Part shown: positions 1 through 64,000 of the stretch, one piece after another
How the letters are laid out: each line of letters starts with the position of its first letter
How positions within the stretch are numbered: the first letter of the stretch is position 1
Assembly (NCBI GenBank): GCA_030272155.1
Contig: CP126201.1
Location: 1,116,001-1,180,000, forward strand
Source: Tetradesmus obliquus
Taxonomy: Eukaryota > Chlorophyta > Chlorophyceae > Sphaeropleales > Scenedesmaceae
Length of the DNA: 64,000 nucleotides
Direction: 5' to 3'
The notes under the pieces: generated by a model
The model's database searches: none
What the model saw: only the letters and a program-made list of their open reading frames with translations
Told to the model about the DNA's origin: nothing
Made by a program: the position numbers and the translations under genes

Positions 1-3000
1 CCAAAGGCGTACGCGTCCGCAGCACGCGTGACCCTGCTGCCGGCCCTGCAAGTATGGTTGATGAGATGTCGCCAGCAGAGCCCAGCGCTGTGTCAGGCAA
101 GCCAGACAAAGCAGCAGCAGCATGCCAGCAGGTGCTGCACCGCACCTCGAAGAGCTCCGGGGCCAGGTGTGTGACAGTGCCGGAGCCGCTGCGGTTGGTG
201 ATGTAGTACTTGCCCAGCAGCAGCTTCACCAGCCCAAAGTCGCCTGCAGCAGCATGAAGACATATACTCATGTTAGTGCTTGATTCTGTTGTTAAGAAGC
301 GCATGTGTTATTATGTTACACAGTTGACCCAGTCGATGACAGCAACGCAGCAGCTTCACCAACCCAGAGGCAGCTGCAGCGAAGCGCCATGAACAGCAGC
401 AGCTGAGCTTGAAAAGCAACACGGGCATGTACGCCACAGACTTATTGCATACACCTGCCACAGCAACTTACCCAGCTTGCAGTCAAAGCCTGTGGGGCTG
501 CTGGGGTTGGTCTTCAGCAGCACGTTCTCAGCCTGCAAACGCAGCAAAAGATGCAGTGCAGCAGCGCAGCACATCTAATCACTTTGGTTGCCTCACAGCG
601 CAGCTAGCAACCAATTCGAAACATGTGTAGCCGCAACGACCTCTGATGCATGCACAGGCTGTGACAAACATGGATGCAGCGCAGCAAGCTTCTCAATGTG
701 TGTGCCTTTCAAAACGTTTAGAATGGTTTTGACACCAGGTTTCATCACCAGCCAGGGCAGCCTGCAGAGCAGTGCTGCTGCTGCTGCTGCTGCCTACCTT
801 GACGTCGCAGTGGATGATGTTCATGCCGTGCAGGTACTGGATGCTGCGAGCCACCTCCAGCAGCACCTGCAGCAGCAGAGCGGCAGAAGTAGCAGCAGCA
901 CACGATTTGGAACAATACACTCTTTCAACACTTACTGAATCGGGCGTGCGCAGAGCAAGAACAGCACACTTCTCGATTAACGGCCATGCCCACCATTTGG
1001 CAGCTAGAAACTGACGCAATGCAGACCATTCTCCTACTGGACACACAACACACCCGCACCAAGAACAGAGGCATTATACATTTGCCAATACTGCGCAAAC
1101 TCCATCACACCATCAATAGTGATGACACCATGACCAGCAGTCGCATGTCCACCACCAGGACCTTGTCAACTGACACGCAAGATTGCCCAATCAATCCATC
1201 ATAAGCCATGCGACGCACCGTGACCAGCAGCCGCATGTCCACCACCAGCCCCTTGTTGGCGGTGCGCTTGTGCAGCAGCCCGCGCCGCATCGCCTGCCGC
1301 AGGTTGCCCTTGTCGCACACCTGACGCAGCAGCAGCAGCACAGCCAAGATGTGAGTCATGTTCAGAAGCCACATCGCCTGCCGCAGGTTGCCCTTGTCGC
1401 ACACCTGACGCAGCAGCAGCAACACAACGATGCCGGAAGATGTTGTCAGAAGGATTGCATGTGGATGCATGCAAACAGGATAGCGACACTGACGCTGACG
1501 ACTAGCGACGCTGACGAAGCCCACCAGGACGTGTTACGGGTGATGCTGATGCAGCAGGCACCAAAGCTCCACTTCAAAGCATGCCTTGGCTCACGGTAAC
1601 GAAGCAGCGCAGTGCGCGCGCGCAGCCGCAGTGCCACGTGTGCACTGCAACACAACGCAATGCAGCTGTCTACACATCAGTCACAGCAACAGCCTCCCTC
1701 TATTTGCAAAGCCAAAGGCCGGCACCAGATGCGGTCACTGTGGCAGCAGCAGCAGCAGCAGCGCACCTCCATCACCACGATGTTGCACAGCGAGGAGCAG
1801 CCCGTGACCAGCGGGATGCTGCCGTCCCAGGCAGGCCTGAAGCGCCGCTTCACGTTGTCAGGGCCAGGTGGGCCGCCAGGCACTGCAGGACACACACAGC
1901 AGCAGGCAGATCACACACGTTACTGCCAGACACTGCCAGATTGCCAGGCAAGATAGTGCGCGGCAGGCCTGAGGCAGCAGAGCAGCAGCAGCAACATAAG
2001 TAATGGCGGAGGACATGTGAAGGGTGATGATCGTGCAGCGAGGAGCAGCCCGTGACCAGCGGGATGCTGCCATCCCAGGCAGGCCTGAAGCGCCGCTTCA
2101 CGTTGTCAGGGCCAGGTGGGCCGCCAGGCACTGCAGGACACACACAGCAGCAGGCAGATCACACACGTTACTGCCAGACACTGCCAGATTGCCAGGCAAG
2201 ATAGTGCGCGGCAGGCCTGAGGCAGCAGAGCAGCAGCAGCAACATGAGAAATGGCGGAGGACATGTGAAGGGTGATGATCGTGCAGCGAGGAGCAGCCCG
2301 TGACCAGCGGGATGCTGCCGTCCCAGGCAGGCCTGAAGCGCCGGTTCACGTTGTCAGGGCCAGGCGGGCCGCCAGGCACTGCAGGACACACACCAGCAGG
2401 CAAAACACGCACGTTACCAACAGATCATAGGCACAATCTGGTGTACGCAGGCCGGAAGCGGCAGAGCAGGTTGTCAGAGCCAGGCGGGCCGCCAGGCACT
2501 GCACAGAGCAAAGGGCAGACGCAACAGACACATGCGTGTTGCAAGCTGTTGAGGGCACCAGCCATGGCATAGGGCAACGTTTGTGTGGTTCCCTAACGAC
2601 AATCAGCGCCAACGCTTGCTGTGCAGCTGCCGTGCATTCTATGCTTGCATGCTGCACTGGGAGTAGTCCCCTTCTACAGTATCCTACACCATCTCCAGAG
2701 CGCAGTGCAGTGGGCTAAATTATGATGATGAAAAGCACCAAAGCTGCCACCTCAAACAAACAGCCTAGCCGACTCACCCACCTCCTCAACCATGTCAGTG
2801 TAGACGGCCTACACCAAACCGATGTGAGGCGTGGATTGCTGCTGCCAGAAACCGTGAAACGCAAGCAAAACACGATGGCAAGCAAAACAGTCAGCTCACC
2901 GGCCTCCTCCACCATGTCGCTGTACACGGCGTACACTCGACTGAATTTTGGAGTGCATTGCTGCTGCCAAAGAATTCAAACGCCAGGGCACTTGACAACA

Positions 3001-63100: not shown

Positions 63101-64000
63101 TGCTAGGTTGTGCATGTGCACAACATACTGCACACAGAGTCGACACACACAAGCACAAACACTAGAAGCAGCACAGGTTTGGCACATGCACACCGTCCTC
63201 AGGGGTACTGCTGTCCTCTTGTGCTGCCCTGCTGTTGGCAGGAGCAGCTCAGACAGAAATCTCATGTGTAGAACATAAGCATCACCGGACGTTTGTGCAG
63301 CACAACAATCATTTATGATGCTGTTCAGATCACTATGATTCTCACACCATCTGTGATCCTCACATCCTCCTGCAAATCGCCACACCATCCTGCAAAACTC
63401 ACAACAACCTGCCACCTTCAAATCATCCTGCAAACATTACACCACCCTGCACACCTGTGTGTTTCACGCATTGCGCTGTTCACTGCTGCCAGTGCCAGCT
63501 CAGAGTCTGCCGCTGCATCCAGCACACCCAGGCTGCAGGCTGCATGGCACGGCGCCTCTCCATTTCTGTTGCAGAAAGATTTCAGCTGTTGCTGAAATCT
63601 TTCTTACGAACACTGCTCACACAACAATGACACTGTTCCAAAAACTACGCACCCCACAACAACCTGCCAACTTCAAACCATCCTGCAAACATCACATTAC
63701 CCTGCGTACCTGTGTGTTTCACGCATTGCGGTGTTCACTGCCGCCAACGCCACCGCAGCATCAGCTGCTGCATCCAACACACTTCACTTTTGCTCCCATG
63801 GTCCAGCCCACAAACGTCACCTCTCTTTTTCTGTTGCTGAACCTGTCCACTGCGCACGCAACAATGACCCTGTACCGATCGCTAAAAAACCCACAACATC
63901 CTGCCACCTTCAAATCATCCTGCAAACATCACATCACCTTGCGTACCTGTGTGATTCACGCATTGCGGTGTTCACTGCCGCCAGCGCCAGCTCAGAGTCT
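60188..64000 (-). CDS. Gene with SpoVS/Alba-like segment and charged coiled coil (5' end cut by window edge)
   Basis: Exons seen: 63947->64000 (DSELALAAVNTAMRESHR), 62533-62764, 61336-61816, 61056-61184, 60912-60963, 60188-60333. The first three join in phase. Residues across 62764-61700 read RVLVADAGGNVGLLADALTL then GHGVAVAMAAIANARCVL, resembling the SpoVS/Alba fold of small nucleic-acid-binding proteins. Then come Gln runs, PRRLYKLLVIACDPGDDM and a Lys/Arg/Glu coiled coil (KNRETKEKEKREKR). The last three exons also agree with each other (LLIDANVLFPIQALLRPRG, a C-terminal AMKDARGDLTGLHV, AAVQLYMYAAS), but the junction 61336 to 61184 conflicts by one base: phase 1 against phase 0. A missed microexon, a frameshift or two separate genes could explain this. 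Function unknown; RNA or DNA binding is inference. Confidence 0.55.
60561..60660 (-). ncRNA. Box C/D snoRNA-like element, copy 1 (intronic)
   Basis: On the minus strand a box C-like GTGATGC (60647-60653) and a box D CTGA (60567-60570) lie about 87 nt apart. They are bracketed by a 6-bp terminal stem with one mismatch. A D'-like CTGA lies in the middle. The element is inside the intron 60334-60911 of its host gene, as is typical of snoRNAs. Confidence 0.45.
61230..61265 (-). repeat. Donor-edge copy of exon 61336-61816
   Basis: The exon end and the first intron bases (AGGTCCAGGGGCTG) are repeated about 80 bp into the intron, supporting the placement of an unusual GTCCAG donor at 61335. Confidence 0.6.
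62085..62460 (-). repeat. Two donor-edge copies of exon 62533-62764
   Basis: The exon end (NQRVLIADAG to LQLRQPAGCAS) and donor recur at about 62105-62215 and 62365-62440. The first keeps over 100 exon bases and stays open in frame. Confidence 0.85.
62890..62962 (-). repeat. Acceptor-edge copy of exon 62533-62764
   Basis: The exon start (RSTLLLQPQLLQPC to VPQPPP) and acceptor are repeated about 190 bp into the upstream intron. Confidence 0.8.
63194..63291 (-). ncRNA. Box C/D snoRNA-like element, copy 2 (intronic)
   Basis: About 93 percent identical to the element at 60561-60660. Box C-like GTGATGC (about 63279-63285), box D CTGA (63199-63202) and a perfect 5-bp terminal stem (63194-63198 with 63287-63291) are all kept. 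It lies in intron 62765-63946 of the same host gene. Confidence 0.45.
63450..63780 (-). repeat. Two donor-edge copies of exon ending at 63947
   Basis: The exon end (LALAAVNTAMRE) and about 100 bp of following intron recur with donor edges near 63461 and 63707, about 240 bp apart. One of these could be the functional donor instead of 63947; phase is the same in all three. Confidence 0.8.

Follow-up and report, generated by a model that had tools for sequence, protein, structure and literature searches.

The window, a 64,000-bp stretch of the genome of the green alga Tetradesmus obliquus (C11:1116001-1180000; genome of 104.66 Mb in 17 contigs), contains genes whose introns carry copies of the adjoining exon ends, here called exon-edge copies. 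Its GC content was 55.7% and many CAG/CTG runs were present; for the species, the table in PMC5966456 gives 57% GC and a mean intron length of 462 bp. The analysis covered the window and thirty 10-kb samples taken from this genome (364 kb in total), to which all counts refer unless the window is named. Gene models came from an in-house two-strand, splice-aware hidden Markov model (HMM) with splice-site matrices trained on the same 364 kb; all exon borders derive from it, and earlier and later models disagree in places (e.g. exon 7590-7728). It yielded 391 complete introns, with donor AG^GTG(A/C)G and acceptor TGCAG^G, the caret marking the junction. Of the nine proteins predicted in the window, the four that were compared with Pfam matched a protein kinase with GAF domain, an amino-acid kinase with PUA domain (glutamate-5-kinase-like), a Rubisco activase, and a fasciclin-domain protein.

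A first characteristic of the exon-edge copies is their occurrence in the intron adjoining the copied edge. Exon edges of 45 bp were compared with introns, low-complexity edges, short edges, and short introns being excluded (355/391 donors and 364/391 acceptors retained). A same-strand copy was present in the own intron for 43/355 donors and 51/364 acceptors (94/719 edges overall), versus 0/2675 donor and 1/2728 acceptor comparisons with other introns (1/5403). Introner-like sharing among introns of many genes was not found for exon-edge copies. Opposite-strand copies occurred at 1/355 donors and 0/364 acceptors, and copies in the intron across the exon at 3/174 and 1/179 edges (4/353). A lack of excess similarity between introns and exon edges, or unlinked copies on the opposite strand, which a preliminary description made from the window's letters had named as contrary outcomes, was thus not encountered. 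Its count of over 35 arrays and more than 60 copies was about right: the window held 39 repeat clusters, and 57 copies at 33/133 testable junctions (10/68 donors and 23/65 acceptors), in 28/71 introns. The pattern extends beyond the window, an edge copy being present in 80/391 introns of the window and samples together. Among introns of at least 400 bp, the edge was copied at 29/89 donors and 27/87 acceptors, and copy-bearing introns were longer (median 416 versus 255 bp; Mann-Whitney, p=2e-16).

A second characteristic is the placement of the copies, which agrees with that reported from the letters alone. Donor-edge copies lay in the intron half adjoining their own edge in 50/61 cases and acceptor-edge copies in 73/91. 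Mid-exon sequence (120-165 bp in) was copied in 1/128 cases (first 260 introns), and the second 45 bp of the exon at about 6% (7/127 and 9/141). Inclusion of the splice site, also claimed before, applied to acceptor copies (AG in 41/42) and partly to donor copies (GT in 29/38, lost in 9/38). The unit length left a remainder of 0, 1, and 2 after division by three for 38, 55, and 59 copies, respectively, without in-frame preference. Three or more intronic copies were found at 15/94 junctions; copy tallies count such multi-copy arrays more than once.

Thirdly, local repeats were direct. Self-comparison of the window gave 106 direct versus 7 inverted non-microsatellite pairs, and within 1 kb 98 direct and 2 inverted ones, the latter both being self-palindromes. 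Over the 364 kb, pairs within 1.5 kb numbered 323 direct versus 9 inverted; all nine were self-overlapping palindromes, leaving 323 versus 0. This bears out the same-strand character of the copies and corresponds with the adjacent same-strand copies expected of local tandem duplication; the signature of dispersed repeats or transposons, i.e. both orientations and unlinked copies, was not found. Local direct repeats were present in 15 of the first 20 samples and absent from 5. BLAST self-comparison resolved 132 clusters, about one per 2.8 kb, located at one junction (65), at several junctions (37), in introns only (7), in exons only (8), in intergenic DNA only (8), or mixed (7). The 39 clusters of the window comprised 24 at one junction, 8 at several, 2 intron-only, 2 intergenic-only, 1 exon-only, and 2 mixed with intergenic DNA. 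Local repeat spans covered 33,625 of 145,550 intronic bp (23% of the sampled intronic bases). The smallest spacing was 80-179 bp in 104/132 clusters and was similar on and off junctions, which suggests that unit size is set by the duplication process. The lower limit of unit size was taken from Tandem Repeats Finder, which reported no window array whose period falls between 35 and 83. BLAST self-comparison may miss copies separated by less than about 50 bp, and it reported the 24-bp minisatellite at 12578 with a spacing of 72. Duplication of both halves of a unit (exon and intron part) was seen in young arrays, with the entire unit repeated at 1788-2417 (97%) and 5002-5484 (92%); elsewhere, many intron halves were unrelated or strongly diverged.

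Table 1. Exon-edge copies and related arrays in the window
Feature	Positions	Strand	Details
Acceptor-edge array	1788..2503	-	95 bp of exon 1767-1882 + 153 bp of intron; period 248; 2.5 copies; extra edge copy 2447-2503
Donor-edge array, exon 3135-3264	2773..3174	-	Period about 117-122; 3.4 copies
Acceptor-edge copy, exon 3135-3264	3211..3463	-	Period 112
Acceptor-edge array, exon 3602-3707	3666..4067	-	Period about 105-113
Acceptor-edge array	5002..5484	-	43 bp of exon 4533-5044 + 85 bp of intron; period 128; 3.4 copies
Array	7649..8366	-	Period 151 + partial units; earlier model: acceptor edge of exon 7590-7728; later model (exon 7590-7631): all intron
Acceptor-edge copy	19827..19977	-	37 bp of exon; telomere-like repeat between copies
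Acceptor-edge array, glutamate-5-kinase-like gene	28971..29266	-	Period 115-117
Acceptor-edge array, glutamate-5-kinase-like gene	30136..30488	-	Period 125-143
Acceptor-edge copy	30863..31171	-	115 bp of exon; period 169
Donor-edge array	31989..32296	-	Real donor GTAAGT; GTGAGT and GTAGAT after the two intronic copies
Tandem units, most of Rubisco activase last exon (38599-38840)	38064..38779	-	Units of 261-267 bp; extra copies downstream of exon
Donor-edge copy, Rubisco activase exon 39375-39556	39104..39482	-	Copy at 39104-39231; 39124-39234 taken as exon by gene finder
Acceptor-edge copy, Rubisco activase exon 39375-39556	39441..39734	-	Copy at 39613-39734; period 172
Acceptor-edge array	47370..47639	-	Period 92-99
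Donor-edge copy	52157..52299	-	49 bp; AT in place of GT after copy
Large acceptor-edge array, fasciclin-domain gene	52309..53571	-	23 repeat pairs
Acceptor-edge array	57456..58205	-	Period about 118
Array, incomplete right-edge gene	63394..64000	-	Period 255

Further repeats were noted beside these arrays. The telomere-like repeat (GGGTTAGGG variants) between exon edge and intronic copy occupies 19889-19920, as if it were filler at a repaired break. A 180-bp unit in 4-5 copies (36774-37593) resembles by eye a whole exon of ~70 bp with acceptor and donor, and is absent from the HMM models. A 98-bp direct repeat (60562-60659 and 63194-63291; 95% identical) is separated by 2.6 kb, the usual spacing being 100-200 bp. 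An inverted 51-bp repeat (23540-23590 and 26215-26265; 98%), with an imperfect palindrome nearby (26136-26250), possibly represents mobile-element remnants. The 24-bp minisatellite mentioned above (12578-12768; about 8 copies) has no predicted genes around it, and a perfect (CAG)38 run (42650-42763) encodes a glutamine tract in the HMM reading. Outside the window, one sample (L017, 1-6039) contained two long tandem arrays, with periods of 274 and 351.

Use appears to be limited to the copy attached to the exon, in line with the preliminary description. For Rubisco activase, the HMM takes the donor-edge copy at 39124-39234 as an additional coding exon. The solved plant protein 4w5w aligns to residues 9-247 of this model and resumes at 297, with one residue between; the 49 residues with the second copy are probably surplus, because 4w5w skips them. 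For this one gene, the protein alignment thus supports the use of a single copy. Reading from the splice site of the copy instead led to a stop in 116/152 cases, and 26 of the 30 indels in 90 best copy-exon alignments were not multiples of three. In addition, private changes in arrays of three or more copies fell on codon positions 1 to 3 in 15, 10, and 14 cases without the most diverged copy, and in 24, 27, and 32 cases with it. The intronic copies look untranslated, although a nonsynonymous/synonymous ratio of 0.23 between copy and exon points the other way. Duplicated or mutually exclusive functional exons, with copies in frame and translated, do not agree with the frameshifting indels and the roughly even private changes either, the ratio again being contrary. 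Coding constraint as an explanation of this ratio was set aside on the same two grounds. Derivation of the copies from spliced mRNA was rejected, since the next exon matched at 1/130 copies.

The pattern is probably explained by local tandem duplication across one splice junction, which would lengthen introns and be filtered by its silence at the junction. Local tandem duplication would be frequent in this genome, with units mostly of 80-180 bp, and a unit across one splice junction would typically comprise 25-60 bp of exon and 50-110 bp of intron. The transcript would remain unchanged as long as the spliceosome stays with the copy that is contiguous with the remaining exon, the duplicate turning into intron. 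Junction-spanning duplications would survive, most purely exonic ones would be lost, and purely intronic ones would fade sooner, both copies being free to change. Repeated rounds, together with unequal exchange within arrays, would lead to longer introns. Duplication would hence be the source and selection the filter, and exchange would keep the exon part alike. The order of the copies would need no directional machinery, because, for a duplication at a donor or acceptor to be silent, it would have to be the inner copy that turns into intron. Of the directional pattern proposed before, the placement at the own edge therefore remains, and a special directional process seems unneeded, as selection would give the direction. 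Similarly, the proposal that introns grow by repeated junction-spanning duplication is supported as to growth, and not as to an ordered gradient of decay. Distal copies were not more decayed: across 152 copies, identity to the exon showed no trend with distance (Spearman -0.04, p=0.6), and the most similar copy was the one nearest the exon in 15 arrays and the one farthest from it in 16, 4 arrays being tied.

Several results weigh against junction-spanning duplication as the whole explanation. A first group concerns placement. Some excess at junctions would be expected, since duplications across them can be silent. Under uniform placement, calculated for array-free introns with the observed periods, one-junction arrays should outnumber intron-only ones by 1.3 to 1, versus 65 and 7 observed, and the exon depth of the units is non-uniform (Kolmogorov-Smirnov, p=1e-7). 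Visibility may account for much of the excess at junctions, since an intron-only repeat is subject to decay in both halves. In young arrays (at least 88% identical, with at least 50 bp of non-exon sequence per copy), where detection bias is small, 8 of 20 were at one junction, 6 at several, 3 intron-only, and 3 intergenic, one of the 3 intron-only arrays having been placed on an exon edge by the earlier HMM model; these numbers hint at a junction preference of duplication, but are not decisive.

A second group concerns divergence. Exon-edge copies shared about 91-92% identity with the exon, also where the intronic half was barely recognisable. Among copies at least 97% identical, a similar intron half (score of at least 0.8) was expected in 578/585 cases from simulation, in which rates, unit sizes, and ages were chosen by the analyst and indel and CpG behaviour was taken from intron parts; it was observed in 10/22. 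At single-copy junctions of at least 95% identity, it was observed in 1/12 (score over spacer length). Exon-copy differences per site were 0.060, 0.053, and 0.147 for codon positions 1 to 3, a third-position ratio of about 2.6 compared with 1.53 in simulation. Of the codon differences by a single base, a share of 0.63 was synonymous, a free copy predicting 0.43, and the nonsynonymous/synonymous ratio given above had a bootstrap range, with junctions resampled, of 0.18-0.30. CpG decay as the source of the third-position excess was rejected, since non-CpG sites behaved likewise (0.106 versus 0.050 and 0.038). Exact ending at the junction, considered as a sign of splice-linked copying, was dropped: 70/90 copies aligned to the very last exon base, and the simulation gives 76% by construction.

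The intron halves were retested at single-copy junctions, because some flanks scored as unrelated matched elsewhere in their own multi-copy array. Of 59 such junctions, 46 were testable; 24/46 intron halves were significantly related (global p<0.05) and 22/46 showed no significant similarity. Because 24/46 are still significantly related, many intron halves appear, as judged from these alignments, to have been copied and to have since changed to a far greater extent than the exon half. Simple duplication with neutral decay does not fit this divergence pattern. The exon blocks may have been refreshed from diverse alleles or, less likely, held by weak constraint, and insertion of filler may have contributed some of the unrelated cases. 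The following three explanations address this misfit, and may add to junction-spanning duplication rather than replace it.

The first, which is tentative, is that recombination refreshes the copies from exons of diverged alleles, or that unequal exchange between diverged homologues builds the arrays, only the exon block being alike enough to recombine. This would account for an old intron half next to a young exon copy, as well as for the third-position bias on both branches when changes were polarised with further copies (35 arrays; positions 1 to 3: 4, 1, and 20 on the exon branch, and 10, 9, and 22 on that of the nearest copy). However, it requires a silent allelic diversity of about 0.1, by the analyst's own estimate; exchange with the exon of the same chromosome alone would, by reasoning, give no third-position excess; and the about even private changes in arrays of three or more copies do not show such a bias.

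Somewhat less likely is a repair of staggered breaks that duplicated the junction block and placed unrelated filler between the copies, so that the intron halves never matched. The junctions without significant intron-half similarity (22/46) and the telomere-like repeat between two matching blocks at 19827-19977 agree with it, but the other 24/46 retain diverged homology. Tracing of spacers within the 364 kb gave mostly simple repeats or, for multi-copy arrays, the own array instead of other loci, and no run of three or more strict telomere units was found in a scan of the 364 kb. The third-position excess would also be left unexplained by filler.

Purifying selection that keeps the intronic copies as decoy or helper splice sites at the RNA level, while the surrounding intron drifts, is unlikely. 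In its favour, copy identity did not correlate with how far the intron half of that unit had diverged (Spearman 0.08, p=0.56, 52 pairs), and the related single-copy intron halves (24/46) would have diverged far beyond the exon half. Moreover, AG was kept in nearly all acceptor copies (41/42), and exon-copy indels were fewer per difference (30 in 90 alignments; 343 differences in 85) than those of intron parts (669 per 3585), although some of these differences lie on the exon branch. Against it, the neighbourhood of the splice site was conserved no more than in neutral simulation, the remaining indels were mostly frameshifting, GT was lost in 9/38 donor copies, and the changes on the nearest-copy branch were biased towards the third position rather than even. 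It is even more doubtful that exon-edge copies are kept genome-wide as non-coding look-alikes, several-fold better preserved than the intron half, which tune or safeguard splice-site choice at ~1/8 junctions. Lastly, an assembly artefact in which two haplotypes were joined at exon edges would produce coding-like differences and unrelated intron halves, but is very improbable given the small number of contigs (17), the absence of N from the first 21 sequences, the cluster density (about one per 2.8 kb), and the three or more intronic copies at 15/94 junctions, impossible from two haplotypes.

Transposons are often invoked for intron lengthening. Intron gain by tandem duplication is known in Drosophila and potato, according to PMC2891723 and PMC4974935, and resembles the present case in the duplication of local gene DNA with splice signals. 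In those accounts, a new intron arises within an exon (from an AGGT duplicate) or, in potato, a new intron plus exon, whereas here an existing intron lengthens and only one copy looks exonic. Similarly, break repair is associated with intron gain in Daphnia, as cited in the review PMC3488318 and in PMC2891723; short repeats near introns, and break repair as a proposed cause, are shared with the present case. However, those repeats accompany newly gained introns, whereas here they consist of exon edge and splice site in introns not known as new. Introner elements (PMC9860276) likewise provide genome-wide intron material with splice sites, but are dispersed copies of one element, each copy here being private to its own junction. 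Minisatellites and ordinary tandem duplications share the head-to-tail units and array expansion, whereas the present arrays lie at splice junctions, are low in copy number, and have a better preserved exon half. Internal gene duplication and intron creation were reportedly treated by Gao and Lynch in 2009 (cited in PMC4974935); frequent within-gene duplication is common to both cases, but theirs is said to concern exon or intron units and not edge-by-edge padding of introns. No report of genome-wide intron padding with exon edges was found among the matches listed by full-text searches with little subscription literature, which is weak evidence of absence.

Altogether, the pattern is genuine and genome-wide and would represent intron growth by tandem duplication; the filter of silent junctions offers the best explanation, though it does not account for the preservation of the exon half. 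It represents an annotation hazard, as the ab initio model calls the surplus copy in Rubisco activase a coding exon. Furthermore, dozens of events at splice junctions can be counted within a single genome, a visible record of intron growth in T. obliquus, with which intron growth, splice-site competition, and recombination at exon edges become directly testable.

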